A stretch of 64,000 bases of DNA, from positions 434,001 to 498,000 of the forward strand of contig OY282385.1 of assembly GCA_958295935.1 (NCBI GenBank), written 5' to 3'. The notes under the pieces were generated by a model that worked only from the letters and a program-made list of their open reading frames with translations, ran no database searches and was not told the DNA's origin. How positions within the stretch are numbered: position 1 is the stretch's first letter; each line of letters starts with the position of its first letter. Positions 6,774 to 44,148 of this stretch are shown in pieces. The DNA comes from an uncultured Dehalococcoidia bacterium (GTDB taxonomy: Bacteria > Chloroflexota > Dehalococcoidia > Lucifugimonadales > Lucifugimonadaceae). A program made the translations under genes and the position numbers.

Positions 6774-6790
6774 CGCAAAGAACTCCCGTA

Positions 6791-6997: not shown

Positions 6998-7000
6998 CAG

Positions 7001-11073: not shown

Positions 11074-11196
11074 CTCAAGCCGTCTCGAATGTCATGGCTG
11101 AAGTAAGAATGAGCATGACCCGCTCGAGAGATGGAGCGTCCCCACCCCCACTACTTCACCAGACCGCGAGTCATCAACCCTCAACCTGCTCTCGCA

Positions 11197-12267: not shown

Positions 12268-12343
12268 GTGTCTCCTTGCCACTCGCGCCAATGCCATGGC
12301 GCAATAGGCACAGGTCCTTTCTCATCTTGCCTGATCGCACGAA

Positions 12344-13230
12344 TCATCCGACAGACTCCCGCGCTCGCCGCTCAAGTACCAGAAGCGCGCCGGAGATGTC
12401 CCCCTCCGAGTACCCGGCGGATACCAGGTCGTCAAAGACTTTCACCGATTCAATCGTCGCCGGCATCGAAAGACCCATCTCCCCGGCCAGCTCGGTAATG
12501 ATGCCCAGATCCTTCACGAGGTTGCGCACGGGCGCGGCCGAATGCTCGAAGTCCCGAGCCGCAGTGATAGGACCGTTCCGCTCCACCATGGTGCTCTGTC
12601 CCCAACTCGCGCTCAGCACTATTCGACCGCTTCCACCAGATCCACCCCAACCGCATTCGCCATGGCGAAGGCCTCTGCCGCCGCGACGGAGTGGACCGCT
12701 ACAAGTGCCTGATTGATGAGCTTCATCGCGGTTCCCGCGCCCGTGTTTCCCATGCGGCGGACGTTGGAACCCATCATCTCCAGGCACGGCCGCGCCGTCG
12801 CAAAGGCCCCTTCGTCCCCGCCCACCATTATGGAAAGAGTCCCGTCAGCCGCCCTGAGAGGCCCTCCGCTTATAGGCGCGTCCAGAAAGGCCGCGCCTGC
12901 CGCCGACGCCGCCGAGGCGCAGTCGCGGGACGTCGAGATGTCAACCGTTCCGTGGTCCGCAAGCACCGCACCGCACCGGGCGTTCTCTATCAAACCGCCC
13001 CGGCCCAGAAAGACGCGGCGGGTGGTTTCAACACTGTCCAGGCACGACAGCACAATATCGCACTGCCCGGAGAGGTCTGCAGGAGACTCGGCGACGCTCG
13101 CCCCGGCCAAAGACATTGCATCCACCTTGGCGCGGGTACGACTCCACACCACCAGAGCAGCGCCCTTCGAGAGCAGGTTGTTGGCCATGCCCTGCCCCAT
13201 GTTCCCAAGCCCGACAAATCCAACCTTCAT
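12344..13230 (-). pseudogene. 3-hydroxyisobutyrate dehydrogenase-family protein, one frameshift
   Basis: From ATG 13230 the protein starts 'MKVGFVGLGNMGQGMANNLL', the NAD(P)-binding GxGxxG of beta-hydroxyacid dehydrogenases. It continues through 'FLDAPISGGPLRAADGTLSIMVGG' (substrate loop) and 'TGAGTAMKLINQAL' (with catalytic Lys), then stops at 12619. The expected helical C-terminal domain follows in another frame from about 12630 to 12344 ('LSASWGQSTMV', 'KDLGIITELAGEMGLSMPA'). A single-base change near 12630 reconnects them into a ~295-residue enzyme. It probably formed a pair with the dehydrogenase at 11197-12267. Confidence 0.88.
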
Positions 13231-13509
13231 ACGCGTACTCTCAACAAGTCTGCATCCTTGGGGATGAGCGTTTCCGGCGAGCCGTCAGCCGATGGGCTGC
13301 GCGACCCGGACAATCGATTATATGTTCCCAGATAACCAGGACTTCCGGCAAACCCGCGTGCTCTCCAGCCGGACGAACGCCGAGCCCGCTGCACGGCCCG
13401 CGAGAACTCAAGGGTCAACCGCTGCTAAGATAGCGCATACATCCTTATGCCTCAGTACGTCACGCCGCAATTCATCACGCCGCATACCGCGCGTCTGCGC
13501 TGATCCAAT

Positions 13510-14301
13510 ATGGCCGTCATTCCCGCAACATCGGCATGCGCATGGTGCCTGACAGGGCCGCCGGAGGAATCCTTGCGCCGCCTGCAGGCGCTCGGATTCG
13601 ACATGGTAGACCTGCGGCCCGACTGTTGGAACGGGATCGACCAAGACGACCTGCAAAGACTGGGAATCGTAGTCCCCTGCACAGGCGTCACGCCAATGCA
13701 GATGGCCCCCGGACTATCGCTCGACTCCCTGGCAACACCCAGCGCAGACGCCGCACTGCCCTACTTCACAAATGCGCTGGAACGCAGCGCATCCATTGGC
13801 GCAACATGCGCGTACATGACCACCCCGGACCGCGGCGCAGGTGAAGAACCCGCATACGTTCGCTCCATGTCCAAACTCGGAGACCGCGCCGCAAGCTTGG
13901 GGATGAAACTCTGCGTCGAACCCTCGCCGGGAAGGGCGCTCGCCGATTACACCGAAACTATGAGGCTGATCGACAACGCCGGTTCCGAAGGTCTCTTCGC
14001 ACTGCTCGACCTCGGACATCTACTGCTCACCGGGGAAGACCCGCCCGCAACCATAAAAGCGCTGGGCGACCGGCTCGGTTACGTTCACGTCGACGATAAC
14101 GACGGCCAGTCCGACGCACACTACGGCCTGATGGAAGGCGTGATGTCGGAAAAGTATCTTTACGGATTCCTCGACGCCCTCGCCGACTCGCCCTACAAGG
14201 GGCCATTGGCCATCGAGATCAAGTCCGATCTACCCTCTCCATTGTTGTCCCTCGTACGATCTCGAAACCTGATAGCCGAGTGGGCGTTGGCCGCCGGATA
14301 G
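13510..14301 (+). CDS. Sugar phosphate isomerase/epimerase-family TIM-barrel protein
   Basis: A 263-residue protein of the xylose-isomerase-like / AP-endonuclease-2 barrel family. It has 'LQALGFDMVDLRPDCW' near the N-terminus, a Glu in 'MKLCVEPSPGRALADY', 'FALLDLGHLLLTGEDP' and 'LGYVHVDDNDGQSDAH', which carry the metal-binding Glu, Asp, His and Asp positions expected of the fold. Substrate cannot be told from sequence; relatives are sugar or hydroxypyruvate isomerases. It is divergent from the hydroxyacid dehydrogenase at 13230 and starts the plus-strand run that leads into the corrinoid operon. Confidence 0.85.
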   Translation: MAVIPATSACAWCLTGPPEESLRRLQALGFDMVDLRPDCWNGIDQDDLQRLGIVVPCTGVTPMQMAPGLSLDSLATPSADAALPYFTNALERSASIGATCAYMTTPDRGAGEEPAYVRSMSKLGDRAASLGMKLCVEPSPGRALADYTETMRLIDNAGSEGLFALLDLGHLLLTGEDPPATIKALGDRLGYVHVDDNDGQSDAHYGLMEGVMSEKYLYGFLDALADSPYKGPLAIEIKSDLPSPLLSLVRSRNLIAEWALAAG

Positions 14302-14404
14302 AGTCGCCGGTACGGGAAAACTCTCTCACACACCCGTAGCCATGCTCCGTTAGGCGCTACGATTGAAAGCCGCACAGCCACGGGAAGCAACGGGCCCGGT
14401 GAAG

Positions 14405-14746
14405 ATGACGAGAACAAGAGTCATGTACTGGAAGGAAATTCCGGTGCAGGTGCAGGCCGAAGACGGTAGGGAAACCGTTTCCATGCCCCTCGACCCCGCA
14501 TTCCAGGAGGCCGTAGACGCCATCGCAATGTTCGACGGCAGCGCGGGAAGCGACCAGTACCTCGACGCCTGGGAATGGGGACCCTACGCCTCTTCAGACT
14601 GCAACCCATCCGAGGCCGCGGAAGCGGCGGCAAGCCGCTACAACACGGGCATCCCAAGAGACTTTGTGGCCCGCATAAGAGACCTGCACAGAGCCGGGCG
14701 GCGAAATACCAATCCCGGCGCCATCGATCACTGGTTCGATGCCTGA
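14405..14746 (+). CDS. Small 'virulence factor' family protein (PF13769-like), head of corrinoid operon
   Basis: A 113-residue protein with the conserved core 'MYWKEIPVQVQAEDG', 'PLDPAFQEAVDAIAM' and 'LDAWEWGP', which I recognise as the Virulence_fact family, named historically and of unknown biochemistry. The ATG at 14405 is preferred because homology starts there; an in-frame ATG at 14363 would add 14 residues. It overlaps the next gene (homocysteine S-methyltransferase) by eight bases, so it belongs to the methyl-transfer operon. That context suggests a role in corrinoid or methyl metabolism rather than virulence. Confidence 0.72.
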   Translation: MTRTRVMYWKEIPVQVQAEDGRETVSMPLDPAFQEAVDAIAMFDGSAGSDQYLDAWEWGPYASSDCNPSEAAEAAASRYNTGIPRDFVARIRDLHRAGRRNTNPGAIDHWFDA

Positions 14747-15692
14747 AGCAATGCCAACGTCAAGAGAACCTTCGTCGAAAGACTGTGCCCCCGCAAAAGG
14801 GATACTAGACAGGCTGGCCCAGGGGGAAACCCTCGCACTCGACGGAGCGACCGGTACATACCTGCAAAAGTGCGGTTTGGAGCCGGGAGGGTGCCCTGAA
14901 CTCATGAACGCCGAGGTCCCGGACACGGTGAGGAGTATGACAGCCAGATACTTCGAGGCCGGGTCCGACATGGCCCTCACCAATTCCTTTGGAGGCTCTA
15001 AGTTCATGCTGCGAAAGTACGGCGTGGGCGACCGGGTTCGAGAACTCAATCGGCTGGCAGCGGAACACGTCCGAGCCGTCGCGCCGCAGGGCGGCTTCGT
15101 AGTTGGATCGGTCGGCCCGACCGGAGAATTCATGGAGCCGCTGGGCGAAGTTTCAGAGCAGGAAATGTACGACGCTTTCGCAGAGCAAATCACAGCCCTG
15201 GAGGAAGGCGGCGCAGACGCGGTCGTAATCGAGACTCAAATGGCCCTCGAAGAGGCCGCAACCGCAATCCGGGCCGCACGGGACAACACCGGCCTGACAG
15301 TCATGTCCACAATGGTATTCGAAAAGGGCCCCAGAGGTTACTTCACGATGATGGGGGTGACCCCCCAGCGCGCAGTTGTGGAACTGCAGGCCGCGGGCGC
15401 AGACGTGGTGGGAACCAATTGCGGCAACGGCATTGAAAAAATGGTCGAACTCGGCGGCATAATGCGCAACTTGACCGACGGATTCCTCATCATTCAGTCG
15501 AACGCCGGCATACCGCAGATAGTGGGCGGAGAAATCCACTACCCGGAGTCTCCGGAGTTCATGTCCGAGCGCTACGCGCAGCTGGCCGAGATACCCATTA
15601 ACATCCTGGGCGGGTGCTGCGGAACCGGCCCCGCCCACGTCGAGGCGATGGTAGAAGCTTTACGGGGCTCACCGCAGGCCGCGGCGGTCTGA
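14739..15692 (+). CDS. Homocysteine S-methyltransferase-family protein
   Basis: A 317-residue Pfam S-methyl_trans barrel: 'LALDGATGTYLQ' at the start, 'ALTNSFGGSKFML', 'VGSVGPTGEFMEP', and the zinc cysteines in 'VVGTNCGNGIEKM' and 'NILGGCCGTGPAHV'. Zinc activates a thiol acceptor such as homocysteine for methylation; some operon-encoded relatives instead handle methyl groups from betaines or methylamines. It overlaps the preceding small gene and precedes the unknown protein at 15731 by 38 bases. With the UroD-type methyltransferase and corrinoid protein downstream it could provide the end acceptor of a demethylation pathway. Confidence 0.92.
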   Translation: MPEAMPTSREPSSKDCAPAKGILDRLAQGETLALDGATGTYLQKCGLEPGGCPELMNAEVPDTVRSMTARYFEAGSDMALTNSFGGSKFMLRKYGVGDRVRELNRLAAEHVRAVAPQGGFVVGSVGPTGEFMEPLGEVSEQEMYDAFAEQITALEEGGADAVVIETQMALEEAATAIRAARDNTGLTVMSTMVFEKGPRGYFTMMGVTPQRAVVELQAAGADVVGTNCGNGIEKMVELGGIMRNLTDGFLIIQSNAGIPQIVGGEIHYPESPEFMSERYAQLAEIPINILGGCCGTGPAHVEAMVEALRGSPQAAAV

Positions 15693-15730
15693 CCGGCGAG
15701 GCGCCGACGAGCGCGGAGGTGTACCAAACC

Positions 15731-16402
15731 ATGGAACAAGACGGGAAACGGCCAAACGTCAAGCAGACGCTCAGACGGCTGGGCAGGTGCTTGGAACTGG
15801 TCTCGATGGATCCACACTTCAACGACGTGACGGTCGGACTCTACTACCAAGGCAACCTGGTTACCGTGTGGTCCTTCAGCGCCATACACGGAATCGAAAA
15901 ACGCATAGAGCAGATTCGAGACCGCCTGGTAGCGCTGGGGGGACTCAAGCCCGTGGAAGGAACGCACGATCAGGCGGTGTTTCCATCGGAGACCATATTC
16001 GAAAGACCCCTGCGGTTCCTGTTTACCCATGCGGTTGAGAAGGATCCCCGGACGGAGCCGCCCAGTGGGCCGATCTCTGCCCCGGACACCAAGACCCGGC
16101 TCACCTTCAGCGTGGCCGGCAAACAAACTGACGAGGGGTTCGTATACACCGTAACCGCCCAGGGTGAGGCGCCCAGACCACAGGCCCGCATACGCGCCGT
16201 GGTCGGCGGATACGTAAGGTACGGAGAATGCAAGCGGGTTTCACCGGATAGCTTCGTGCTTCCGGACAAGGCGCGCCACGATCAAATGGCCAGGGTGCTG
16301 CTGCCGTATGCAAGAAACGTGAGCGCCGTAGAGGGTATGCTTGCCGCTTCCGATCTTGCCGGCCAGATGACCACCCAGACACTGGGCTTTTCGCAAACCT
16401 GA
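15731..16402 (+). CDS. Conserved protein of unknown function in corrinoid operon
   Basis: A 223-residue soluble protein starting at ATG 15731. I do not recognise a family. It shows an alpha/beta N-terminal half ('ELVSMDPHFNDVTVGLYYQ', 'TVWSFSAIHGIEKRIEQI') and a C-terminal half with 'GYVRYGEC' and a helical end. No metal-binding cysteine cluster or membrane segment is visible. Its position between the methyl-acceptor enzyme and the UroD-type methyltransferase, with short spacings on both sides, argues for co-transcription and a role in the same pathway. Confidence 0.65.
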   Translation: MEQDGKRPNVKQTLRRLGRCLELVSMDPHFNDVTVGLYYQGNLVTVWSFSAIHGIEKRIEQIRDRLVALGGLKPVEGTHDQAVFPSETIFERPLRFLFTHAVEKDPRTEPPSGPISAPDTKTRLTFSVAGKQTDEGFVYTVTAQGEAPRPQARIRAVVGGYVRYGECKRVSPDSFVLPDKARHDQMARVLLPYARNVSAVEGMLAASDLAGQMTTQTLGFSQT

Positions 16403-16453
16403 GCGCCGGGCAAGGCGTTGCCAGAGTTCGAACCCGCAAGCTGGAGCGATGAT

Positions 16454-17494
16454 ATGAACGAGCCCAAGCAAATGACACCGAAAGAGCGAGTGCTCAACGC
16501 GCTTGCGGGAAAACCCGTCGACCGTCCGCCTGTATCCAACCCCACCAGCATAGCCACCGTAGAGCTGATGGACCTTGTGGACGCACCATTCCCGGAGGCG
16601 TGCCGAAACCCCGAATTGAACGCCAGGCTGGCCGTAACCGGACATACCCAACTGGGATTCGACTCGATACAGCCGTACTTCTCGATAATTCAGGAATCCT
16701 CAGCCCTGGGATGCGACATGCAGTGGGAGCAAAAGGACAACTGGCCCACGGTGCGCATGTCGAATCCGATATGGCGAGGCCCGGAAGACGTGCGAATTCC
16801 GCCAAATTTCCTGGAGCACCCCGACAACCGAGCCGTTACCGAATCCATAGGCATGATACGCCAGGAAGTCGGCGATGACGTGCCGATCATCGGTAAGACC
16901 ATGGGCCCATGGACGCTTGCCTACCACGTATTCGGAGTGGAACCATTCCTACTGGCCACCATCGATGACCCCGACGAGGTCATGAGGTCGCTGCATAAGC
17001 TGAAGGAAATATCCGTACTGTTCGGCCAGGCGCAGATCGACGCAGGCGCCGACGCCCTCACCTTTCCGGACCACGCTACCGGAGACCTCGTTAGCGGAGA
17101 GTACTACCGAAGATTCCTGCTGGAGATTCACCAGGAAATGGTCGAACGCTTGAACGTGCCCCTGATCCTGCACATTTGCGGCAAGACCGTTGACAGAATG
17201 CCCTACATAGCTCAATCCGGCATGGCCGCCTTCCACTTCGATTCCAGAAATGACCCCGCCGAGGCCATTGACGCAGTCGATGACGGCATCAGGCTGGTAG
17301 GCAACCTCAACAACCCGGAAACCCTATACGCAAGGGGGCCCGAAGAGGTCCGCCAGGAGGTGTACCGGGCGCTTGAGGCAGGCGTGCAGTTGATAGCGCC
17401 CGAATGCGCAATACCCCTTAAGACCAGACTGGAAAACCTGCTGGAGATCCCGGCAGCCGTTCAGGATTGGGCAGCCGAAAGGATGCCGGGTTAA
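16454..17494 (+). CDS. Uroporphyrinogen decarboxylase-family corrinoid methyltransferase (MtaA/MtbA-like)
   Basis: A 346-residue UroD-fold protein. It carries the zinc signature of the methyltransferase branch: H-x-C in 'LILHICGKTVD' and a later cysteine in 'LIAPECAIPLKTRLEN'. These zinc ligands occur in MtaA/MtbA/CmuA-type enzymes and are absent from true heme-pathway UroD. It begins with 'TPKERVLNALAGKPVDRPP', standard for the family. It would pass a methyl group between a methyl donor, the corrinoid protein encoded next and a thiol or folate acceptor. The ATG at 16454 is preferred over an upstream TTG at 16418. Confidence 0.9.
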   Translation: MNEPKQMTPKERVLNALAGKPVDRPPVSNPTSIATVELMDLVDAPFPEACRNPELNARLAVTGHTQLGFDSIQPYFSIIQESSALGCDMQWEQKDNWPTVRMSNPIWRGPEDVRIPPNFLEHPDNRAVTESIGMIRQEVGDDVPIIGKTMGPWTLAYHVFGVEPFLLATIDDPDEVMRSLHKLKEISVLFGQAQIDAGADALTFPDHATGDLVSGEYYRRFLLEIHQEMVERLNVPLILHICGKTVDRMPYIAQSGMAAFHFDSRNDPAEAIDAVDDGIRLVGNLNNPETLYARGPEEVRQEVYRALEAGVQLIAPECAIPLKTRLENLLEIPAAVQDWAAERMPG

Positions 17495-17655
17495 GCGCCG
17501 CGCGTCCCCCAAACCCCGCACACACTCACGTTCATCATGCCAAAATTGTTCTACCGGCCAGATCTAGACCGCCCATACGGTTCAGCCATGACTTCCCGTA
17601 CCCGTAGAGGCTGCTGCGAAAACCATTCATGCCTTGAGAGCGATCGAAGAACGCC

Positions 17656-18405
17656 ATGCCAATAGTCAACGAGGGACTTCAGAAAGAGTTCGAGTACGTC
17701 ACCCGTCCGGGAGAGCGAAAGCATATCGGCGAAACACTTGATCAGGCCGATGAACTGATGCAGGAAATGGCCTACGCCCTCATCACCGGCAAGCACCTCG
17801 AGGTTGACCGCCTGACCAGGGAGGCCCTCGACAAGGGCTATACGGCGAACCGCATCCTCGATTTCGGACTGCTGGCCGGAATGGCTATCGTCGGCGTGAA
17901 GTTCCGCGACAACATAATCTTCGTGCCGGAGGTCCTCGTCGCCGCTAGAGCAATGAAGGCCGGCATGGCGCACGTCGAACCCATACTCTCCGCAGCGGGA
18001 GTGGAACCAAAGGGCACGATCATAATGGGTACCGTGAAGGGTGACCTCCACGACATCGGCAAAAACCTTTGCATCATGATGCTCCGAGGCGCGGGGTACA
18101 CTGTCCACGACCTCGGAGTCGACACCGCGCCGGACGAGTTCGTCGACGCTATCGACGAGTACGAGGCCCAATTGGTAGGAATGTCCGCCCTGCTCACCAC
18201 CACCATGCCCAACATGGGGCGCACCATCAACGCCATCGAGGAGGCGGGTCTGAGGGATGAAGTAAGAGTGATGGTGGGCGGAGCCCCGGTAACGCAGGAA
18301 TTCGCCGACGAAATGGGGGCCGACGGCTACGGACAAAACGCCGTCGAATGCGTGGACAGAGCCAATGAGTTGATCGTGCTGCTCGAAGAACTTCGCAGAA
18401 GCTGA
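17656..18405 (+). CDS. Corrinoid (B12)-binding methyltransferase protein (MtaC/MttC-like)
   Basis: A 249-residue two-domain corrinoid protein. A helical cap (residues ~30-110) is followed by a Rossmann B12 domain with the cobalt-ligating 'GDLHDIGKNL' motif (D-x-H-x-x-G; His binds cobalt), then 'LGVDTAPDEFVDAI', 'MSALLTTTMPNM' and 'VMVGGAPVTQEFADEMGADGYG'. It is the methyl carrier of the operon, working with the UroD-type methyltransferase upstream and kept reduced by the RACo-like protein downstream. A long open frame on the opposite strand is a composition artefact. Confidence 0.93.
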   Translation: MPIVNEGLQKEFEYVTRPGERKHIGETLDQADELMQEMAYALITGKHLEVDRLTREALDKGYTANRILDFGLLAGMAIVGVKFRDNIIFVPEVLVAARAMKAGMAHVEPILSAAGVEPKGTIIMGTVKGDLHDIGKNLCIMMLRGAGYTVHDLGVDTAPDEFVDAIDEYEAQLVGMSALLTTTMPNMGRTINAIEEAGLRDEVRVMVGGAPVTQEFADEMGADGYGQNAVECVDRANELIVLLEELRRS

Positions 18406-29487: not shown

Positions 29488-30597
29488 ATGCCAACTATGA
29501 CCTCCGAAACTGGCGGGCAGCCAGCCAGCGACTCTACTCCCCGCACTCCCCGCGTATGGCTGGTACGCGCAGGCAGGCAGGGAGAGGACGAAGCCGCTGC
29601 AATAGAAAACAACCTCGCAATCATCGGCTTCACCGACGTTCAAAGTTTGGAAGACGCCGAGGACAAAGATGCCATGTCATCGCGTCTGCGCCAGTCCAAT
29701 CCAGCGGCTCGGGAAAAAACCATCATCATCCGCGCAGCTCAGCTGGCCGCTTTCGTTCTGCGCATGAGAGATGGCGACATAGTGGCCCTCCCACTCAAGA
29801 CCCGGCCCGGTCAAGTCGCCCTTGGTCGCGTCGAGGGCCCCTACGCCTATAGAGAAATTGGAGACGCACGGCGCCACACTCGCCCCGTGAAGTGGGTTCG
29901 CCCGGACGTCGCCCGATCTGAATTCGGACAAGACTTGATCCGCTCGCTGGGAACCTCGATGACCGTATGCCGAATTCAACGTGACCAGGCTGAACGGCGA
30001 ATAGCAGCGATACTGGCCGGAAAACCGGATCCAGACAGTGATACACCGGAGGAGTCCAACGCTGTAGACACTGAAAATATGCAGGAACTCCAGGAACCCG
30101 AGGTGGAGACCGACATACGCGAGACAGCCCACCAGGAAATCCTCGACCACATTCGGGCGCGCTTCCCAGGGCATGACTTTGCGCGGCTGGTCGAGGCGGC
30201 CCTGCAAGCGGAAGGGTACTTCACACAGCTTTCACCCCCTGGCCCGGACGGTGGCGTAGACATACTCGCCGGACGAGGTCCGATCGGATTCGAAACTCCA
30301 AGGATCTGCGTTCAGGTCAAAGCCACCGCCGCCGCCGTCAACGTCGATGTTCTACGCAGCCTCCAGGGCGCTATGCAATCTTTCCATGCGGATCAAGGCC
30401 TCCTCGTTAGCTGGGGCGGATTCACAGACCCCCTGATACAAGAAGCAAGGCGGCGCTTCTTCAACGTCCGGCTATGGAACGCGAACGATCTGGCGGAAGC
30501 CATCTACGACAACTATGAGCGGCTGCCGAAACAGATTCAGGCGGAGATCCCGCTTGAGAGAGTATGGACCCTCGTCCATGATGAAGACGGCCCGTAA
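29488..30597 (+). CDS. Mrr-like restriction endonuclease
   Basis: A 369-residue protein. Residues ~20-170 form an N-terminal domain found in 'restriction system' proteins ('VWLVRAGRQGEDEAAAIENN', 'GDIVALPLKTRPGQVALGRVEG'). An acidic linker follows, then a C-terminal Mrr_cat PD-(D/E)xK nuclease with 'GPDGGVDILAG' (catalytic Asp) and 'RICVQVKATAAAVNVDVLRSLQGAM' (Q-x-K). Mrr-type enzymes cut methylated DNA or act when foreign methylation appears. No methyltransferase is adjacent; the nearest is the Dam-like gene at 10.1 kb. The stop codon lies inside the first unit of a ~66-bp tandem repeat. Confidence 0.88.
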   Translation: MPTMTSETGGQPASDSTPRTPRVWLVRAGRQGEDEAAAIENNLAIIGFTDVQSLEDAEDKDAMSSRLRQSNPAAREKTIIIRAAQLAAFVLRMRDGDIVALPLKTRPGQVALGRVEGPYAYREIGDARRHTRPVKWVRPDVARSEFGQDLIRSLGTSMTVCRIQRDQAERRIAAILAGKPDPDSDTPEESNAVDTENMQELQEPEVETDIRETAHQEILDHIRARFPGHDFARLVEAALQAEGYFTQLSPPGPDGGVDILAGRGPIGFETPRICVQVKATAAAVNVDVLRSLQGAMQSFHADQGLLVSWGGFTDPLIQEARRRFFNVRLWNANDLAEAIYDNYERLPKQIQAEIPLERVWTLVHDEDGP

Positions 30598-34944: not shown

Positions 34945-35802
34945 TCACTCACTCTGACGTAGAACTTCAGGAGCGAAGAATGCGAGCCAGTTCTGAACAG
35001 TCTCCATGTCCCTCCGAGCCTCAGTCATACTAAGACCATAGGTTTCGGCAAGCACGTTGTAAGAATCTGCCGCGTCCGCCGCATTGAGAAGCTGGATCAC
35101 GCTGTTGGTGAAGGGAGCAGCGAGCAGACTGGTTGATGCCCAGATCCGCACCTGCTCAACTGTTAGTCCCGATGGTATCGAAAGTGCTTGGATGTCTCGT
35201 CGCGCTGCCCTATGCTCGTCCTGCGAGGCTATCTCATCTTCTCTACCCTGATAGATCAGTCCAAAGTGCCTGGGGTCGCGAGTGGCCGGCCTCCAAGTGT
35301 CAAGCTTGGGCTCCCCGCCAATCATCGCCTGATCGCCTTGTGCACAGATTTTCGAGATCTCTTGCCAGTGCAGGAATTCCCAATCGCTAACCTCTCTTGC
35401 GTGTTTGAGGAGGTTCTGCTCAAAGCTCCAAGCATCAAAGTCGTCGCCGGCGCGACAGAGGATCTCCAAGTTGGATTGTGATGCCCAGCCCATTGCAGAG
35501 GAAGTGAGGTTAGCGGAACCGATCAGGACCGTATCGTCGATTCGGTAGTACTTAGCGTGCAGAGAGGTATGCAGTCTGAACGACCCGCCAAACTGAGTAA
35601 CCATAGTGCGACACTCGATATCGGATGCGCCCACTGCAAGGTCGCGGGGATTCCACCTCGTCACGCAGATAAAGGATGCTTCCGGAGCAACCCTACTGAG
35701 AACCACGTCAAGGACGTCGACTTTGATGTAAGGCGCTGCTAGAAGAAGACGCTGAGCCCCTGTGCAGAGGTCCCTTAGCAGACTCCCCGGTTGACCGTTC
35801 AC
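34945..35802 (-). CDS. Phospholipase D-like (HKD) nuclease, last gene of four-gene defence operon
   Basis: A 285-residue protein with a single HKD motif: 'HTSLHAKYYRIDDTVLIGSANLT' (His82, Lys84, then GSANLT at 95-100) and a following 'NLEILC'. Single-HKD proteins such as Nuc, BfiI and NgoFVII-type restriction nucleases dimerise to form one active site. The start is GTG at 35802, two bases after the GHKL gene's stop, so it is translationally coupled. With helicase and GHKL ATPase partners it most likely supplies DNA cleavage in an anti-phage system. The C-terminal ~120 residues are helical and unassigned. Confidence 0.85.
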   Translation of the reverse strand: MNGQPGSLLRDLCTGAQRLLLAAPYIKVDVLDVVLSRVAPEASFICVTRWNPRDLAVGASDIECRTMVTQFGGSFRLHTSLHAKYYRIDDTVLIGSANLTSSAMGWASQSNLEILCRAGDDFDAWSFEQNLLKHAREVSDWEFLHWQEISKICAQGDQAMIGGEPKLDTWRPATRDPRHFGLIYQGREDEIASQDEHRAARRDIQALSIPSGLTVEQVRIWASTSLLAAPFTNSVIQLLNAADAADSYNVLAETYGLSMTEARRDMETVQNWLAFFAPEVLRQSE

Positions 35803-35804
35803 AC

Positions 35805-37673
35805 CTAGCCATCTCGCTCCCGGAACTGGTTAATGACCCTATCCACCTGGCGACCCCAATTCATGGCGATATCCTGTATACGTGTTCTCTCGTCCCGTGA
35901 TTCTGTCTGATCCTCCATACGAGCCCAAGATGACAGCAGCAGTCTCAGCGCGACGATTGCCTGGAATGCAGGATCGTTCTCATCGCCTTCAGTGTTGAGT
36001 CGGCCCTCGAGATGTCTGATCTGGTCGTATATCCGATGGTCCATATTCAGGTCAATGTGCAAGATCCCCTGGCTCGAGCGGACGCCGAACATTTGGTATC
36101 CGTAGAGTTGAGCGGGGTTGAATTGGTACGAAAGGTCTTCGGCTATCAGATTCTTTGCAAGCCGCGTCGCTTCTTCTCTTGTTTGACCTGCATTGATGAA
36201 TTCTTCTGTTAGACCTGCCTCCCGCACTTCAGGGGGAATACGTTTTCGGTCTCTATCTGTCTGTGTTGGCTGTTCTTTACCATCGGCTATAGCATTTTTG
36301 TCAGCCTCAGTTTGAGTCTTAACTGCCCTACTTTCAGGAGTTTTCCCCCCGTCGGGGCTTCCGTCCAATTTCCGCTTCTGGGCGAACATTCGCCTAATCT
36401 CCCTCATCATGGCCCGCGTCTGATCTCGAATATCGCCGACTATAATGTAGATGTCGTCGCCCTCTATGCCCAATTCATCCAAGACGATTTGACTAGAGCG
36501 GTCGTCCCGAGCCAAGTCTTTTGCTGCTTGCGTAAAGTTAGCCACCATTTGTTTATTGTGATCCACACCAAATAATTCATCACAATTGCGTTTGAAGTTT
36601 ACTTCACACCCCCACCAACGATTCTGTGGATTATCGGCACTTCCCCCTTCTCTTAGAAAGGCATCCTCAAGAACGATTTCGCGATCTGCTCGCACAACCG
36701 ATACCCCGATGTTATGTCTGGCGTGCTGGCCGCGTTTCGTATCACCAGGATACCGTGTATGCGACTCCGTTATCAGGGCTTCAGGTTTTACTATGGAATA
36801 CTTAACACCAATGGACACTTCCAGACCACTTGCAGTAGTCGTGTATTCTTTTTCATACCAAAGTTTAAACATAGGTTCTTTGTCCCATGGCTTTTCAGGA
36901 ACGGACGTTGAGCTCATGAGATAGAGGGGATCGTTCGCGACTACAGTCGTCTCAAATTTAGGTTCGCTAGGTCGATTGATGAAAAAGGACGCGGCCCGTA
37001 TCCTTATAATATCATCGTTAATGTAATGGCGATGTATGCGCCCAATTTCTTGGGATGTCTTTTTAATAATTGTATCGCCAGTTCTCCATCGGATTTTATC
37101 TAGTTTGCTCCATACGACGAGAGTACCTGAGTGGTGTTGATAGATTTGCTCGTTGCCAGCTATTTTCCAAATCTCAGGTATCGGTGTATCCTGGTCAGGA
37201 ATAGGAACATTATAGTCACCCTTTTCAATATTGTCAGCGTCTATGCTAGAATGCCACACGGAATTCAGACCATCTTGCCAAGTCCACACATCCACTCTCT
37301 TACATTGCGACATCGATGATGTAGGAAGGCCCATGCCATATTTACCGATTCCTCTTCCTCCTATGAAATTATGCCGCGCACCTCCTCCGAATTTTAGAGC
37401 ATCAAATAGGGTTCTCACACTCATCCCAGTGCCATTATCCAATACTCCTATCTTACAAATTTGTGGTCGGTTCTGAGTCTTCACTCGCCTCATTTCTTCC
37501 ATGCACAGAAGCTCGATACGTTCGGCGTCAGCGTCTATAGAGTTATCTATGAGTTCGGCAATGGCGTAGGCTGAGTTGTGATATCTGCTGTCACGCAAAG
37601 CCCGGATGGTGAAACTGCCTGGGAACAGACTGCGGTCTGCGTCCTTCAGTTGCTCAACTATTTGCTCGACCAT
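35805..37673 (-). CDS. MORC/MutL-like GHKL ATPase of defence operon
   Basis: A 622-residue protein. The GHKL ATP-binding domain is clear: N-box 'AIAELIDNSIDADA' (Glu40, Asn44), G1 'DNGTGM' (79-84) and G2 'GGRGIGKYGMGLP' (105-117). A MutL/MORC-type transducer region probably follows; the C-terminal third is charged ('RKLDGSPDGGKTPESRAVKTQ') and then helical. In this family ATP closes a dimer clamp on DNA. The ATG at 37673 has GGGAGG upstream and overlaps the helicase gene by 16 bases. GHKL ATPases combined with SF2 helicases and PLD nucleases were predicted as restriction-like systems (Iyer, Abhiman and Aravind, from memory). GC is visibly lower than in surrounding core genes. Confidence 0.88.
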   Translation of the reverse strand: MVEQIVEQLKDADRSLFPGSFTIRALRDSRYHNSAYAIAELIDNSIDADAERIELLCMEEMRRVKTQNRPQICKIGVLDNGTGMSVRTLFDALKFGGGARHNFIGGRGIGKYGMGLPTSSMSQCKRVDVWTWQDGLNSVWHSSIDADNIEKGDYNVPIPDQDTPIPEIWKIAGNEQIYQHHSGTLVVWSKLDKIRWRTGDTIIKKTSQEIGRIHRHYINDDIIRIRAASFFINRPSEPKFETTVVANDPLYLMSSTSVPEKPWDKEPMFKLWYEKEYTTTASGLEVSIGVKYSIVKPEALITESHTRYPGDTKRGQHARHNIGVSVVRADREIVLEDAFLREGGSADNPQNRWWGCEVNFKRNCDELFGVDHNKQMVANFTQAAKDLARDDRSSQIVLDELGIEGDDIYIIVGDIRDQTRAMMREIRRMFAQKRKLDGSPDGGKTPESRAVKTQTEADKNAIADGKEQPTQTDRDRKRIPPEVREAGLTEEFINAGQTREEATRLAKNLIAEDLSYQFNPAQLYGYQMFGVRSSQGILHIDLNMDHRIYDQIRHLEGRLNTEGDENDPAFQAIVALRLLLSSWARMEDQTESRDERTRIQDIAMNWGRQVDRVINQFRERDG

Positions 37674-38920
37674 AATTCCTCCCAATTCGTGAAAGCATCG
37701 GTAACTGAACCAAAGCTAGGTAGGTTCGTATCCGCAACGGTCAGTATCTCGGCCCTAGAGTTTCCACCAGCACGGGGGCCGCGCATCGCTCGTCCTGCCA
37801 TCTGCGAATAGAGGACTAGAGACGTGGTGGGACGGGCTATGATTACGCAGCGGGTGCGGGGTGCGTCGAATCCAGCAGTCAGCACCCCGTAGTTGAACAT
37901 CACCATATGTTCCCGCCTGTGGCTTCTAAAACCCTCAATTATGACTCGCCGGTCCTCAGCGGGGGTGCTAGCAGTTAACACCTCACTGACGACTCCTTTG
38001 GCCTGGAGGAGTCGGTTGCAGTCTACCGCACTTTCCACCGAAGGACAAAACACTATAGTGCGGAGGTGACGTGCAACGGCTCTTTCAGCTAGCGCGACGA
38101 CCTTGCGGGTGCGCTCCCGATTGCGACCCAATTCGTCCAAGTCACTTCCGCTGTAATCCATCCCAGGGCTTGGATCAGGAATCACAGCGTCGGAGTCGAA
38201 GTTGATGGGCACGAAACGCGGCTCAGCGAGGTAATCACTCTGGATTAGGTAGGTTACGGGATTGTCATAGCCCCGAGGATCTATCGAAATTTTCTTATGG
38301 TTGAACATCCTGGCCAGACTGTGATCCGCCTCAGTGATGTTTGCAGTGCGCCCAGGAGTAGCCGTAAGCCCAAGAAGTGGCGGCCGAGTGCTGCATAGCT
38401 GCTCGGTTACAAACGAGTAGGTCTCAGCAACCGCTTGATGAGCTTCATCAAAGATGACCGCTGCGGCACGTCCAGCGATGTGAGCAAGCAGAGTGTTGTC
38501 CCGATTAGTGGAGGAGCGTAGTTTGGCAAGCCCAGTCACCAAGAAACCAGACGGCAGGTCCCGCAGATCAAGCCTGCGATTCCCCCAGTATCGGTGCACG
38601 TGAGTATCATGACGCCCTAGGTGTGTCCATCCACGGGAAAGTTCGTCCGCCGCTTGTTCACACAACTCTCCGCTAGAGGCAAGCCAGATCACAAGGGAAG
38701 AATCAGTGGCGGCCTCATTCAACAGATGACAGGCCGCATGGACCGCGATCCTTGTCTTGCCAGCGCCTGTAGGAAGGTGGGCGACAGCACGTCGCTCAGG
38801 CGAGGATAGAGCTCTAAGAATGTCCCCCAGAACCTGCCGCTGATAGGGATGCAGTGGGTATTTTGGGCTGACTGTCTCCTCACCCACTTCAGGTACCACA
38901 GAGACCCTCGCATTCTTCAT
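37658..38920 (-). CDS. DEAH-type SF2 helicase of defence operon
   Basis: A 420-residue superfamily-2 helicase. It has a Q-motif-like start 'LHPYQRQVLGDIL', Walker A 'LPTGAGKTRIA' (50-56), DEAH in 'VIFDEAHQAVAETY' (158-161), motif III 'GLTATPGR' (185-191), and motifs V/VI 'GVLTAGFDAPRTRC' and 'YSQMAGRAMRGPR'. The layout is that of type I/III restriction-type helicases (RAD25/UvrB-like). It overlaps the PP-loop gene by 32 bases and the GHKL gene by 16, so all four operon genes are tightly coupled. It probably translocates on or remodels invading DNA. Confidence 0.92.
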   Translation of the reverse strand: MKNARVSVVPEVGEETVSPKYPLHPYQRQVLGDILRALSSPERRAVAHLPTGAGKTRIAVHAACHLLNEAATDSSLVIWLASSGELCEQAADELSRGWTHLGRHDTHVHRYWGNRRLDLRDLPSGFLVTGLAKLRSSTNRDNTLLAHIAGRAAAVIFDEAHQAVAETYSFVTEQLCSTRPPLLGLTATPGRTANITEADHSLARMFNHKKISIDPRGYDNPVTYLIQSDYLAEPRFVPINFDSDAVIPDPSPGMDYSGSDLDELGRNRERTRKVVALAERAVARHLRTIVFCPSVESAVDCNRLLQAKGVVSEVLTASTPAEDRRVIIEGFRSHRREHMVMFNYGVLTAGFDAPRTRCVIIARPTTSLVLYSQMAGRAMRGPRAGGNSRAEILTVADTNLPSFGSVTDAFTNWEELWSSK

Positions 38921-39755
38921 TGAAGTGGTTCAAGTCAACGCCTTGCGCCTCCCGATCCGCAATGACCGTGCCCAAGGGCCGACGGGCGGCGTGGAGATAG
39001 GGCCGTCCATTCAGTAGTTCCCGTATTGGATTCTTTGTGCTATTTCTGAGCCAACGGTCGAACCTTACGGCCTCGTTGTAGCTGTCCGGTTCACGCCGCT
39101 TCAACTCTAGCCAATGTTCATCGGATCTGTACGGGCATATCACGCAGGCTGAGCGCGGCAGCCGGCGTCCCGAATACTCCACAGAGAACCATTCAACACA
39201 GTCGCGGCGAGTCATGCCTAGGTCCACCAGCGGCCAGCGATGATCGACCCAAGATTCCCTACTTGCCTTCATGCGGCCGACCTCATCCCGTGATATTCCC
39301 AACCACATCTCTACACGGTTGTTCTTGGGGAACCGTCGGCCTCGCCGTCCACCCGCGAGGCTCCTAACTTTCCGGTAGATGGGCGCAATCTTGTAGTGGT
39401 TTGTGCACTGTCGTCGCAACATCCCCTTCTTGCCGTTCTCGTCAACTGTGAAAAGAGGGACGTCAACGAAACGGTGGCCGGAGACCGTACGACCTTGCCT
39501 TAGATTAGCCCGGAGGTCACCGCTGGACACCCGTATAAGCGGAAAGTCGAGTTGATTTTCCAACCAGTCAAGATGGAGATAAACGTACTCAGGCTCCCAT
39601 CCGGTATCGGCAAATATCGCCACGTCCGGTTTCGAGTAACCGCGTTTGAGCAATTGAGGATCGGACCGCGACAATAGAAGCGCCAAGACCGAGCTCTGTA
39701 CCCCAGCTCCCAAGCTAAGGGCCCGATAGACTACCGTTTTCGCGTCCGCGACCAT
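38889..39755 (-). CDS. PP-loop / PAPS-reductase-like protein, first gene of defence operon
   Basis: A 288-residue adenine-nucleotide alpha-hydrolase. The pyrophosphate loop is the variant 'SLGAGVQSS' (14-22), followed by 'PDVAIFADTGWEPEYVYLHLDWL', as in phage and island proteins annotated phosphoadenosine phosphosulphate reductase. Cysteines cluster in 'RRQCTNHYKIAPIYRKVR', 'SACVICPYRSDEHW' and 'CEGLCGT' and could bind iron-sulphur or zinc. In Dnd-type modification DndC has this fold and activates DNA for sulphur insertion; here no DndD/E or DndA is present, so a DNA modification role is only a suggestion. The ATG at 39755 follows GGAGAGGAG inside the duplicated promoter repeat. Confidence 0.82.
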   Translation of the reverse strand: MVADAKTVVYRALSLGAGVQSSVLALLLSRSDPQLLKRGYSKPDVAIFADTGWEPEYVYLHLDWLENQLDFPLIRVSSGDLRANLRQGRTVSGHRFVDVPLFTVDENGKKGMLRRQCTNHYKIAPIYRKVRSLAGGRRGRRFPKNNRVEMWLGISRDEVGRMKASRESWVDHRWPLVDLGMTRRDCVEWFSVEYSGRRLPRSACVICPYRSDEHWLELKRREPDSYNEAVRFDRWLRNSTKNPIRELLNGRPYLHAARRPLGTVIADREAQGVDLNHFNEECEGLCGT

Positions 39756-39953: not shown

Positions 39954-39989
39954 AGCCGAGCGTCACAACAGACAGTGGCAAGGAGAACG

Positions 39990-40829
39990 ATGGGCAGCAG
40001 GCAGAGCGGCGACAAGGAACACACAGGCGGCAAGGCAGGAGTAGAAAACGTTTACGCAGCAGCCAATAAGTGGGTCGACTGCGCGCTGCGTAACGACGAC
40101 TCGCTCTTCACGCCCGGCAAGGCTATCTGGTCCAGCCGTTGCCTTGCAGAGCTTCGGGAGTGGTTCCCGGACAGCCGGGGTGCCTTTCTTGAAAAATTGA
40201 AGAAACGGTTGTGGGGCAGTCCTCGTGATGTCTATCAATTGATGGCCGAGGCGTACTACGTCCACTTCCTCATTGTGTGGCGTGGAAGCATAAGGCCCGA
40301 TACCAAACTAGATCGCATAAATGAGGTGATCGGGTGGTCGTATCAAGCCATGACAATTCCTGCCGACCTCGTGGACGGCCTGACGCCTGGCATGGTCAGT
40401 TCTCGGGCGTTCGGCCAATACCCCGAGTATCACCTTGCGTTCCTCATAGAGTTTGCCGAGCAGTGGAAGGAGCAGGAGTCGGACGAACGCCAGCGCCTGC
40501 TCGAGGACCCCTGGGCGTTCAAAGACTTCGCGACCGGGCTCACGTTCAGAAGTCAACTCTTGGAGGACTATTCTGGCACCACTCATCTCGCTCAACGTGA
40601 GGCTCTGTACCACCTCGTCTTTCCAGATCACTTCGAAGGCATGGTCAACGTTGAGAACAAGAAACGCATAGCTGACGCGCAGCCGTTCCAGAAGTTCGTC
40701 ACTCAGCAGACGGCCTATGACGTTGACCGCAGGCTTCAGCAGATTCGTAAAGGCCTTGAAGCCCAGCTTGGGAGAGACTTCGACTTCTACGACGATCCTT
40801 ATATTCGCGCTCAGTGGCGCGACGATTAG
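39990..40829 (+). CDS. Stand-alone copy of the McrB N-terminal domain
   Basis: A 279-residue protein that matches residues 1-275 of the McrB encoded next from end to end ('VENVYAAANKWVDCALRNDDSLFTPGKAIWSS', 'KLDRINEVIGWSYQAMTIP', 'ALYHLVFPDHFEGMVNVENK', 'RRLQQIRKGLEAQLGRDFDFYDDP'). It stops exactly where McrB enters its polyproline linker and has no AAA+ motor. The ATG has AGGAGA upstream. In McrB the N-terminal domain recognises modified DNA, so this protein may be a decoy, a regulator like the short McrBs form of E. coli (which also lacks one domain, though the other one), or a second recognition subunit. Confidence 0.85.
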   Translation: MGSRQSGDKEHTGGKAGVENVYAAANKWVDCALRNDDSLFTPGKAIWSSRCLAELREWFPDSRGAFLEKLKKRLWGSPRDVYQLMAEAYYVHFLIVWRGSIRPDTKLDRINEVIGWSYQAMTIPADLVDGLTPGMVSSRAFGQYPEYHLAFLIEFAEQWKEQESDERQRLLEDPWAFKDFATGLTFRSQLLEDYSGTTHLAQREALYHLVFPDHFEGMVNVENKKRIADAQPFQKFVTQQTAYDVDRRLQQIRKGLEAQLGRDFDFYDDPYIRAQWRDD

Positions 40830-41030: not shown

Positions 41031-41063
41031 AGCCGAGCGTCACAAACAGAGGGAATGAGAACG

Positions 41064-42848
41064 ATGGGCAGCAAAAAAACAGGCGACGGCGTAGAAAACG
41101 TTTACGCAGCAGCCGAGAAGTTGGTTGAACGCGCGCTCCGTAACGACGACTCGCTTTTCACGCCCGGAAAAGCTATCTGGTCCAGTCTCTGGCTTGCGGA
41201 TCTTAGGGAGCGGCTTCTGGACAAATGGGAATGGCCCGAAGACAAGGGCGGATTCGGCGCACAGTTGGAGAAGCAGTTGGCGGGCAGTCCTCATGAGGTC
41301 CATCAGCTGATGGCAGAGATGTCGTACGTCCATCTACTCATCGTGTGGCGTGAAAGCATGAAGCCTGATACCAAACTAGATCGGATAAATGAGGTGCTCG
41401 GATGGTCGGACCAAGCCGTGACAATTCCTGACGATCTAGTGGACGGCCTGACGCCTGGCATAGCCGGCTCTCAGTCGTTCGCCCGATATCGCCTGTACCA
41501 TCTTGGGTTCCTCATAGAGTTTGCCGAGCAGTGGAAGGAGCAAGATTCAGACGAACGCCAGCGGCTGCTCGAGGATCCTTGGGCGTTCAAAGACTTCGTG
41601 AAAGAACTCACGTTCAGAAGTCAACTCTTAGAGGGCTACAGTGGCACCGCTCATCGCGTTCCACGTGAGGCTCTGTACCACCTCGTTTTCCCAGATCACT
41701 TTGAAGGCATGGTCAGCGTTGGTCACAAGGAACGTATTGCCGGCGCGCAGCAGTTCGCGCAATTCACCACTCAGCCGACAGATGATGTTGACCGTAGGCT
41801 TCAGCAGATTCGCAAAGGCCTCGAAACCTACCTTGGGAGAGATTTCGACTTCTGGGATCCTGATATTAAGGGTATATGGGACGACAATTCGGTGGATGGG
41901 AACGGACCGCCACCTCCACCACCACCGCCACCTCCGGAGGACCCTCTGAAATCGCTTGCCAACGATTTGCACCTACCCGTCGAGTTCCTACGCGAAATCG
42001 AGACCCTGCTCAACGAAAAGAAGCAGGTCATCTTCCAGGGGCCGCCAGGCACCGGAAAGACCTACGTCGCACAGGAACTCGCCGAGGTTCTCGCCGGGTC
42101 GGAGGACAGGGTCACCCTCGTACAGTTCCACCCATCCTACGCATACGAGGACTTCGTGCAGGGCTTCCGCCCTACCCTTGAAAACGGTCAGCCCGGCTTC
42201 AAACTCAGGAACGGACCCCTGCTGAGCGCCGCCAAGAGCGCAAAGCAGAAACCCGACGAAGACCACTTCCTCGTCATCGACGAAATCAACCGAGGCAACA
42301 TAGCCAAGATCTTCGGAGAACTCTACTTCCTGCTCGAATACCGCGACCGCGAGATGCGCCTCCAATACTCCGACAAGCCATTCTCACTGCCGCGCAACTT
42401 GTACTTCATAGGCACCATGAACACCGCCGACCGCTCCATCGCTCTCGTCGATCTCGCGCTGCGCCGCCGCTTCTACTTCAAGGAATTCCACCCCGACGAG
42501 CAGCCGGTGAAAGACGTGCTCCGCAAGTGGCTCAACGCAAACGAGCCCGACGCGAATTGGGTGGCAGACCTCGTTGAACGCGCAAACGAAAAGCTGAACG
42601 ACCGGGACGCAGCCATCGGCCCCAGCTACTTCATGCAAAAGGGGCTGGACGAAGACAAGATCAATCGGATCTGGGAACACAGCGTCTTGCCATACGTACA
42701 GGAACGCCTCTTCGGTGAAGACGAACGCATCGCGGAGTTCAGATTGGACAAGCTCCGGCGAGAGGGCGCCGGCGCCTCTGACAACACCGACGACGGAGGC
42801 GAGCGAGCAGAACAACAGGACGACGACGGGAACGATGCGACAGATTGA
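41064..42848 (+). CDS. mcrB: McrB-type AAA+ GTPase of modification-dependent restriction
   Basis: A 594-residue protein. Residues 1-275 form the DNA-recognition-type domain shared with the upstream paralogue; 282-291 are ten consecutive prolines; from ~295 comes the McrB AAA+ motor with Walker A 'FQGPPGTGKTYVAQELA' (326-333), 'LVQFHPSYAYEDFVQGFRP', Walker B 'FLVIDEINRGNIAKIFGEL' and the McrB signature 'IGTMNTADRSIALVDLALRRRF'. It hydrolyses GTP and drives translocation while McrC cuts. It overlaps mcrC by 14 bases. The ATG at 41064 is chosen by alignment with the paralogue. The N-terminal domain is not the E. coli DUF3578 type as far as I can judge, so the recognised modification is unknown. 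Confidence 0.93.
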   Translation: MGSKKTGDGVENVYAAAEKLVERALRNDDSLFTPGKAIWSSLWLADLRERLLDKWEWPEDKGGFGAQLEKQLAGSPHEVHQLMAEMSYVHLLIVWRESMKPDTKLDRINEVLGWSDQAVTIPDDLVDGLTPGIAGSQSFARYRLYHLGFLIEFAEQWKEQDSDERQRLLEDPWAFKDFVKELTFRSQLLEGYSGTAHRVPREALYHLVFPDHFEGMVSVGHKERIAGAQQFAQFTTQPTDDVDRRLQQIRKGLETYLGRDFDFWDPDIKGIWDDNSVDGNGPPPPPPPPPPEDPLKSLANDLHLPVEFLREIETLLNEKKQVIFQGPPGTGKTYVAQELAEVLAGSEDRVTLVQFHPSYAYEDFVQGFRPTLENGQPGFKLRNGPLLSAAKSAKQKPDEDHFLVIDEINRGNIAKIFGELYFLLEYRDREMRLQYSDKPFSLPRNLYFIGTMNTADRSIALVDLALRRRFYFKEFHPDEQPVKDVLRKWLNANEPDANWVADLVERANEKLNDRDAAIGPSYFMQKGLDEDKINRIWEHSVLPYVQERLFGEDERIAEFRLDKLRREGAGASDNTDDGGERAEQQDDDGNDATD

Positions 42849-44148
42849 TCTGAAAGAGTACGAAACGAGCGCCTACCTGCTCTCCCATGCCGAAGCGAGC
42901 TCCCTTCGGAACAGGCCCAAGGAACTCGACCTCACGGTCACCCGCCCGCTCGATTCAAACGACGAGTACCACCTCGCGCCCGGCTCCACCGTCGGCGCAC
43001 TCGAACTCGACGGCCTGTCGATACTCATACAGCCCAAGATCAGCATCCCGCAACTGCTGTCCATGGCCTGCTACGCCATCGACAAGGTCAAGTTCAAAAA
43101 AGAACAGTTCAAGTACCCCGACGAACCCGCCCTGCCCGACGTGCTGGCGCGCTCTCTCGCCGCCTGCGCACGCAAGACGTTCGCCAGAGGGCTGCTACAC
43201 GACTACCGCACCGAGGAGGAAGCCCTCCACACGGTGCGCGGGCGCATCAGATTCGACGAGCAGATACGGCGCAGGTTCGGCTCCCCACTGCCGATCGAGG
43301 TCACCTACGACGACTTCACCGACGACATACCGCTGAATCAACTGGTCAAGGCCGCGGCCTTTCGGCTCCGCAGAATGCGCCTGCGATCAGCGGAGGCCCG
43401 CACGGGTCTGGCCTGGGTCGCGGCTATGCTCGATAACGTCTCCCTCAAAGAATTTCGCCCGCGCGAAGTGCCCAAAATCCGCTTCGACCGACTCAACGAG
43501 CGCTACAGAGACGTCGTCGCCCTGTCGAGCCTCGTTCTACAGCACAGCGCGTTCGAGTCCAACCGAGGGGATGTCCGAACGCCCGGATTCCTGATGGACA
43601 TGAATGAGGTATTCCAGGAATTCGTGACCGTAGCGATGAGGGAAGCCCTGGGCGCTTCTGACCGCATGTTCGGGGAACGCTCTATCGATTCGCTCGATGA
43701 AGACGGGGACATCCGGCTGAAGCCCGACCTCACTTGGCGGGATGGCAAAAACTGCCTGTTCGTGGGCGACGCCAAGTACAAGAAGATCGAAGGACACCCG
43801 CAAAACGCCGACTTGTACCAACTGCTGGCCTACGTCACCGCACTCGATCTGCCAGGCGGAATGCTCATCTACGCCCAGCACGAGGGAGACAGCACGATAG
43901 GCGAGTCGACCGGATCGCCGAACGGAATGCCCAGCTACGCCCAGCACGAAGAAAAACCGGCCGTCCACAAAGTCAGGCGCTCAGGCAAGCGCCTGGAAGT
44001 CGCCGCGCTAAACATATCCGGCACCCTGGACGACGTACTCGACCGCGTCAAGCGCCTGGCGGAAAGAGCAAAAGACCTCCGCGACGAAGCGCGCACGCTG
44101 CGAAATAAGGCATGGCAGCAGCAGCCCGCCAAATCCGCAGCCGCATAA
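42835..44148 (+). CDS. mcrC: McrC-type endonuclease subunit
   Basis: A 437-residue McrC. It has an N-terminal beta domain ('LDLTVTRPLDSNDEYHLAPGSTVGALELDGLSILIQPKI', the finger that stimulates McrB) and a C-terminal PD-(D/E)xK nuclease: 'IRLKPDLTWRDG' (Asp) and 'CLFVGDAKYKKIEG' (D-A-K). 'FLMDMNEVFQEFV' before the nuclease is typical of the family. The ATG lies within the last codons of mcrB. Near residues 340-375 'LIYAQHEGDS' and 'SYAQHEEKP' form a short internal repeat not normally seen, probably a small local duplication. Confidence 0.93.
   Translation: MRQIDLKEYETSAYLLSHAEASSLRNRPKELDLTVTRPLDSNDEYHLAPGSTVGALELDGLSILIQPKISIPQLLSMACYAIDKVKFKKEQFKYPDEPALPDVLARSLAACARKTFARGLLHDYRTEEEALHTVRGRIRFDEQIRRRFGSPLPIEVTYDDFTDDIPLNQLVKAAAFRLRRMRLRSAEARTGLAWVAAMLDNVSLKEFRPREVPKIRFDRLNERYRDVVALSSLVLQHSAFESNRGDVRTPGFLMDMNEVFQEFVTVAMREALGASDRMFGERSIDSLDEDGDIRLKPDLTWRDGKNCLFVGDAKYKKIEGHPQNADLYQLLAYVTALDLPGGMLIYAQHEGDSTIGESTGSPNGMPSYAQHEEKPAVHKVRRSGKRLEVAALNISGTLDDVLDRVKRLAERAKDLRDEARTLRNKAWQQQPAKSAAA

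Follow-up and report, generated by a model that had tools for sequence, protein, structure and literature searches.

SspABCD, a single-strand DNA phosphorothioation system, has been described together with SspE or with SspFGH. SspFGH is encoded by three genes beside sspBCD, and its proposed role is to attack unmarked DNA; a Walker A motif is found in SspF, SspH is FtsK-like, and 2,211 of 2,678 sspBCD loci have no adjacent sspFGH or sspE (PMC8092258). A four-gene cassette in a 64-kb stretch of DNA from an uncultured Dehalococcoidia bacterium (contig OY282385.1, positions 434,001 to 498,000; the whole stretch is called the window, and coordinates refer to it) is a real, uncatalogued variant of phosphorothioation-type restriction-modification. 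The cassette encodes a PP-loop protein (PP), a superfamily 2 (SF2) helicase (HEL), a MORC-like GHKL ATPase (GHKL) and a phospholipase D-type nuclease (PLD), and profile searches agree with these assignments, which had been proposed in a sequence-only reading of the window. The source genome, G000, is a single contig of 2.75 Mb, and L numbers denote relative loci.

Relatives of the HEL–GHKL–PLD triad adjoin SspABCD in most of the loci found, and SspD and PP have the same type of fold and the same cysteine signature. However, the cassette has no SspA, SspB or SspC, its triad is neither SspE nor SspFGH, and PP is not SspD by either tree or model score. Identification of the triad with SspFGH was rejected because the gene content differs and SspH is FtsK-like (PMC8092258). 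In L090, L095, L103 and L106, candidate SspF/G-like genes lie beside the triad as separate genes. PbeABCD and CxC ABC-ATPase systems tie a PLD nuclease and an SF2 helicase to phosphorothioation, as do relatives of the triad (PMC6459918, PMC10853773), but the PLD and helicase of PbeABCD are one protein, accompanied by an ABC ATPase and small partners and by no GHKL ATPase. Since PLD and the helicase are separate in the cassette and its operon has no ABC ATPase, PbeABCD was also rejected. A 2024 survey of phosphorothioation loci mentions HKD–helicase fusions, and the words GHKL and MORC are absent from it (PMC10853773).

The MORC/paraMORC restriction-modification operons combine a GHKL ATPase, an SF2 helicase and a nuclease, as the cassette does, with HKD mentioned as a helicase fusion; unlike the cassette, they pair with methylases or with REase, HNH or Vsr nucleases, and the terms PAPS, PP-loop, phosphorothio and DndB are absent from that description (Iyer 2008, PMC2292703). 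Type 4 BREX, with BrxP, and type IV-B CRISPR, with a CysH-like protein, resemble the cassette in having a PAPS-reductase-type protein in a defence locus, but the cassette has no PglZ, BrxL or Csf genes, and the PADLOC models of DndC and BrxP give no match to PP, although PP may be distantly related to them. Among the PAPS-reductase-like proteins of viruses and plasmids (phrog_424, with Thermus phage P23-77 and marine phages), the best viral members have the motifs of PP, but viral members have no link to the triad. DISARM was rejected in the absence of the combination of DrmA/DrmB and a methylase with DrmC, PLD being a weak DrmC-like match only, and MZA was rejected because GHKL matches MzaB only N-terminally, with 60 bits against a cut-off of 850. 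The four-gene set is named in no entry of PADLOC 2023, NCBIfam 2026, Pfam, PHROGs or the open-access full texts searched, and PADLOC as a defence classifier returned no catalogued system with the same four components. The sequence-only reading was therefore right in not recognising the set among named systems, but the link to phosphorothioation is closer than its remark on missing Dnd hallmarks suggests, because HEL–GHKL–PLD is itself a recurrent partner of SspABCD.

Conservation and mobility of the cassette

A scan of a GHKL alignment against 84,980 species gave 294 relatives, and the analysis covered the best 80 of them together with 10-kb flanks. The order PP–HEL–GHKL–PLD is repeated in 12 further loci (L029–L039 and L041) and in one locus with a fused PP, L040, which is counted separately; L032 and L033 are the same loci as G252 and G294 and are counted once. 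L029–L039 (n = 11) have GHKL identities of 61–71%, all have the four genes in this order except that PLD is missing at contig ends in L033 and L039, and their hosts are metagenome-assembled genomes (MAGs) of Latescibacterota, Gemmatimonadota, Chloroflexota, Acidobacteriota and Pseudomonadota. L041 has the same four genes with a GHKL identity of 40%. By extrapolation, the PP/HEL and HEL/GHKL overlaps, the latter counted from a TTG start, are exactly −32 and −28 bp in 11 of the 11 close loci. Beyond the four genes, none recurs in more than four loci, an aldo-keto reductase recurring in four. The ratio of nonsynonymous to synonymous substitution rates (dN/dS) in close pairs is 0.06–0.26 for all four genes.

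The recurrence of the gene order, the exact overlaps in the 11 closest loci, the lack of any other shared gene and the purifying selection argue that the cassette is not a chance arrangement. The four genes form a mobile unit on which purifying selection acts. One functional unit had been predicted from the overlaps alone, and its recurrence with exact overlaps in the 11 close loci bears this out. PP is more than an occasional neighbour, since L041 and every one of the 12 loci in the closest clade have it, without a gap; beyond this clade the triad goes with Ssp genes. In L038 (3253–4590), HEL is broken into two open reading frames (ORFs), with the other three genes intact, which reflects either decay or an assembly error.

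Kinship of the triad with Ssp phosphorothioation loci

Relatives of HEL, GHKL and PLD are found in the same order across the loci. On plasmids of Hymenobacter, Trichormus, Geminocystis, Treponema, Roseobacter and Mesorhizobium they adjoin some or most of the genes for SspB (DUF4007), SspC, SspD and a cysteine desulphurase, and sometimes DndB. In the retrieved flanking DNA of the 80 genomic loci, SspB, SspC or SspD occurs in none of the 13 PP loci; among the 67 non-PP loci, at least one of the three is present in 53, at least two in 51 and all three in 41, and the 14 without any include some that are cut by contig ends. PP and SspB/C/D are thus mutually exclusive (Fisher p = 6e-8, uncorrected for shared ancestry). 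PP lies directly upstream of HEL, which is the position of SspD in L042, L043, L054, L056 and others. In L042, SspABCD stands in front of a triad that belongs to the clade of the window itself, and the PADLOC models score SspB, SspC and SspD of this locus very strongly. HEL, GHKL and PLD as families are covered by no PADLOC or NCBIfam model, Ssp-type loci included. From its domains and its context, the triad looks like a restriction-type module of Ssp systems that has no name as yet.

SspB (PF13182/DUF4007) has no match in G000, and the same search is positive in six of six genomes with the triad plus Ssp genes. DUF4007 was also not found in seven of the eight other PP-type genomes searched (G252, G294 and the genomes of L029, L031, L036, L040 and L041); the eighth, that of L034, has one DUF4007/SspB, distant from the cassette. 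Among 301 sampled Chloroflexota genomes, DUF4007 is present in 25. SspC is absent from the flanks of the 13 PP-type loci, a genome-wide search for it not having been made. Orphan HEL–GHKL pairs without PLD or Ssp genes occur in L046, L047, L052 and L058; they share one metabolic-gene neighbourhood in several Chloroflexota MAGs and have possibly been re-used for another purpose.

The window and the 11 other close PP-type rows form one group in the GHKL tree (Shimodaira–Hasegawa-like approximate likelihood ratio test, SH-aLRT, 99). It is nested in a 16-row group (100) with L041 (PP), L040 (fused PP), L048 (cut contig) and L042 (SspABCD), and the 16-row group is placed among Ssp-type rows. In the PP tree, a 98/100 branch divides the operon PPs from those of viruses and plasmids and from the fused PPs, the last being a group of their own (99/100). 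The simplest history would be that a triad once associated with SspABCD lost this module and gained a PP-loop gene in its stead, with L040 as a second, fused form; since the GHKL tree is midpoint-rooted, the direction of this change is an inference.

The PP family and features of the four genes

PP is PAPS_reduct-like under the Pfam threshold, and it matches phrog_424 at 5.6e-39 over residues 12–287; its match to the PADLOC SspD model is 9e-13, against 7e-109 for true SspD. By these profiles and by its tree, PP is assigned to the phrog_424 PAPS-reductase-like family, grouped with viral members away from SspD. An alignment gives R115, C117-T118, K122, P125, D157-E158, S202, C204, C207 and C286 as common to PP and SspD, the shared cysteines including the CxxC at 204–207. 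C117, C204, C207, C282 and C286 are invariant in 52 operon, fused and viral PP sequences. The AlphaFold model of PP based on these 52 sequences has a pLDDT of 91.7 and a pTM of 0.88, its final residues being poor, and supersedes a poor first model built from 12 close sequences (pLDDT 64.7). The model is nearest to PAPS/APS reductases (Z 11–12), followed by the thiolases NcsA and TtuA, which are [4Fe-4S] sulphur transferases, and by the sulphur transferase LarE (Z about 9–10); likeness of fold alone is no proof of function. A sequence search of the PDB with the single PP protein gave no match, and the best hit of the PP profile there was 'PptA' at E = 0.035. PP homologues in G229, G193 and G129 have an uninformative gene context.

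The family has at least 581 viral-contig matches, 48 phage records and 178 plasmid records. The best viral members (80 best) are 40–46% identical to PP over nearly the full length and carry the same motifs; GHKL relatives are encoded in only five viral contigs. In 13 of the 80 viral loci, PP and a cytosine DNA methylase are encoded by genes that share 16–27 bp (L123, L168, L170, L194 and nine others), which hints at a role of PP in DNA modification. A PP-loop gene overlaps a cytosine methylase gene on a small Streptomyces plasmid too (L018, 3486–5677), as in the viruses. The authors of a Thermus-phage study considered phage PAPS-reductase-like proteins worth investigating (PMC11437467), and no papers treating cysH auxiliary genes together with phosphorothioation were found in the open-access full-text literature.

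A second defence locus with a PP-loop domain is present in G000 (L028, G000:C1:2039001-2059000, 6698–17955, that is, G000:C1:2045698-2056955). Its PP-loop domain is 47–49% identical to PP and is fused to DUF6339 (the PDC-M33C fusion), and its companions are candidates for PDC-M33A and M33B and a protein with a stretch like sigma-70 region 4. The locus also has a PbeA-type PLD–helicase (1.9e-170) and a PbeC-type ABC ATPase (1.3e-56). In L040, an M33A–M33B–M33C::PP block is joined directly to HEL–GHKL–PLD. The pairing of this PP-loop family with two different phosphorothioation-type restriction modules supports the idea that PP is an exchangeable marking, or sensing, part. No papers on PDC-M33 were found in the open-access full-text literature.

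The features of the cassette and of its neighbourhood are collected in Table 1. The predicted 32-bp and 16-bp overlaps and 2-bp gap agree with the ORF coordinates: the overlap of HEL with GHKL is 16 bp from the ATG of GHKL and 28 bp from the TTG, and a gap of 2 bp lies between GHKL and PLD. This ATG is preceded by GGGAGGAATT, with a good GGGAGG Shine-Dalgarno sequence. HEL matches ResIII (9.5e-19) and Helicase_C (2.1e-13) in a profile search, has intact motifs (Walker A GAGKT at 52, DEAH at 158, TATP at 186 and QMAGRAMR at 373) and is shorter than its Ssp-linked relatives by about 115 N-terminal residues. GHKL matches HATPase_c_3 (4.3e-22) and has an intact N-box ELIDN (ExxDN), DNGTG (DxGxG) and GIGKYGMG (GxGxxGxG). 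Its closest PDB relatives by profile are MORC2, 3 and 4; these motifs and the nearest solved family identify it as a MORC-like ATPase, in keeping with the earlier description of a MORC-like GHKL protein beside a helicase and an HKD nuclease. PLD matches PLDc_2 slightly below the cut-off and has one intact copy of the HKD motif, so that a dimer is expected. A promoter and terminator scan of the cassette gave results no better than those for shuffled sequences.

Table 1. Coordinates of the cassette, its parts and neighbouring genes in the window
Feature	Position	Strand	Remarks
Cassette	34945-39755	-	PP-HEL-GHKL-PLD in the direction of transcription; from the ORF list
PP	38889-39755	-	288 aa; PP-loop (PAPS-reductase/DndC/SspD-like); first gene; ATG start, GGAGAGGAG upstream
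Degenerate PP-loop motif SLGAGVQSS of PP	39690-39716	-	residues 14-22; from the alignment
PP/HEL overlap	38889-38920	-	32 bp
HEL	37658-38920	-	420 aa; SF2 helicase
GHKL	35805-37685	-	MORC-like ATPase; 626 aa from TTG
GHKL, alternative start	ATG at 37673	-	622 aa; likelier start
PLD	34945-35802	-	285 aa; one-HKD phospholipase-D-type nuclease; GTG start
HKD catalytic motif of PLD	35509-35559	-	HAKYYRIDDTVLIGSAN; residues 82-98
McrBC-type restriction genes	41055-44148	+	divergent from the cassette
Separate ORF preceding the McrBC genes	39975-40829	+	resembles a duplicated McrB N-terminal domain
Mrr_cat protein	29488-30597	+	matches PADLOC candidate PDC-S02 (8.7e-127); about 2.4 kb from tRNA-Thr
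tRNA-Thr	27028

The Mrr_cat protein, the cassette and the McrBC-type genes together make up a defence island.

Proposed function and alternatives

On balance, the cassette is probably restriction-modification-like, with PP marking host DNA and HEL–GHKL–PLD attacking DNA that is unmarked. HEL–GHKL–PLD would be a restriction module normally partnered with SspABCD, and in the clade of the window the single enzyme PP would replace the whole SspABCD modification module. PP probably uses ATP to activate DNA or a nucleotide and supplies sulphur, for which a housekeeping cysteine desulphurase would be the donor; genes of the cysteine-desulphurase family are found in G000. The helicase would translocate along DNA, the GHKL ATPase may act as an ATP-driven clamp coupling recognition to cleavage, and the PLD dimer would cut or nick DNA that lacks the host mark. 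The sequence-only reading had PP standing in for the modification component, possibly on a sulphur basis. This part is supported, and the cassette has no DNA methylase, as had been stated, but it is the Ssp modification genes, not a methylase, that PP replaces.

Several points weigh against this proposal. Chief among them is that SspB and SspC are missing: SspB, a nickase, and SspC, an ATPase, belong to the Ssp phosphorothioation machinery, in which nicking by SspB is essential (PMC8092258), and neither is encoded beside PP. Either the triad would supply the opening and nicking of DNA, or the chemistry would differ. Furthermore, the PP-loop is degenerate (SLGAGVQSS in PP versus SGG[KR]DS in SspD), and SspD is separate from PP in the PP tree (100/100). 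The pairwise divergence of PP does not significantly track that of HEL, GHKL and PLD within the clade (Mantel rho 0.14–0.36, p 0.07–0.27), and so co-evolution of the parts of the cassette is not shown. The more specific proposal that a single PP-loop enzyme of viral type, with neither SspB nor SspC, writes a DNA self mark that is read by a helicase–GHKL–PLD complex can be put forward only tentatively.

Alternatively, given that phages have enzymes of this family, PP in the host may be a sensor or effector and not a writer. It would then recognise phage DNA or nucleotides with a sulphur or adenylate modification, or act on them, and license the triad to attack modified DNA in a type IV-like manner, or it would itself be a nucleotide-directed toxin. 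The chiefly viral family of PP, its degenerate P-loop motif, the lack of SspB or SspC to build a mark and the McrBC-type modification-dependent system adjoining the cassette are all consistent with this. However, PP occupies the operon position of the writer SspD, its catalytic-type cysteines and DE motif are invariant, and, unless PP is an activator, a triad without a marker of its own should attack the host. A sensor or effector role is rather doubtful.

It is unlikely that the cassette relies on an unlinked Ssp or Dnd phosphorothioation system, or on no mark at all, with PP as a regulatory or accessory passenger. The unlinked SspB in the L034 genome would fit such a dependence, as would the 14 loci of orphan HEL–GHKL pairs or triads without Ssp genes, some of them contig-limited; on the other hand, G000 and most of the other PP-type genomes searched have no DUF4007/SspB, and PP is kept in every locus of the clade with a conserved overlap and a low dN/dS. 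That PP is a metabolic PAPS reductase in the operon by chance is very improbable in spite of a fold nearest CysH, since PP falls under the family cut-off, no sulphate-assimilation gene recurs beside it, and a separate PAPS_reduct protein of full strength in G000 (E 1.6e-44) speaks against a housekeeping function of PP.

In the cassette, the half of a known sulphur-marking immune system that cuts DNA is joined to one enzyme of a mostly viral family, and the cassette points to a restriction-type helicase–GHKL–PLD module found with Ssp phosphorothioation in many phyla. Only with a mark other than phosphorothioate would the cassette be categorically new. If a single viral-type PP-loop enzyme does write the self mark, the widespread viral 'PAPS reductase/cysH' genes would be DNA-marking or anti-restriction enzymes and not genes of sulphur metabolism, and the mark would possibly be other than phosphorothioate. 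The cassette may therefore show the role of a common but unexplained viral enzyme family, and it offers a four-gene system in which that role can be tested by simple genetics.

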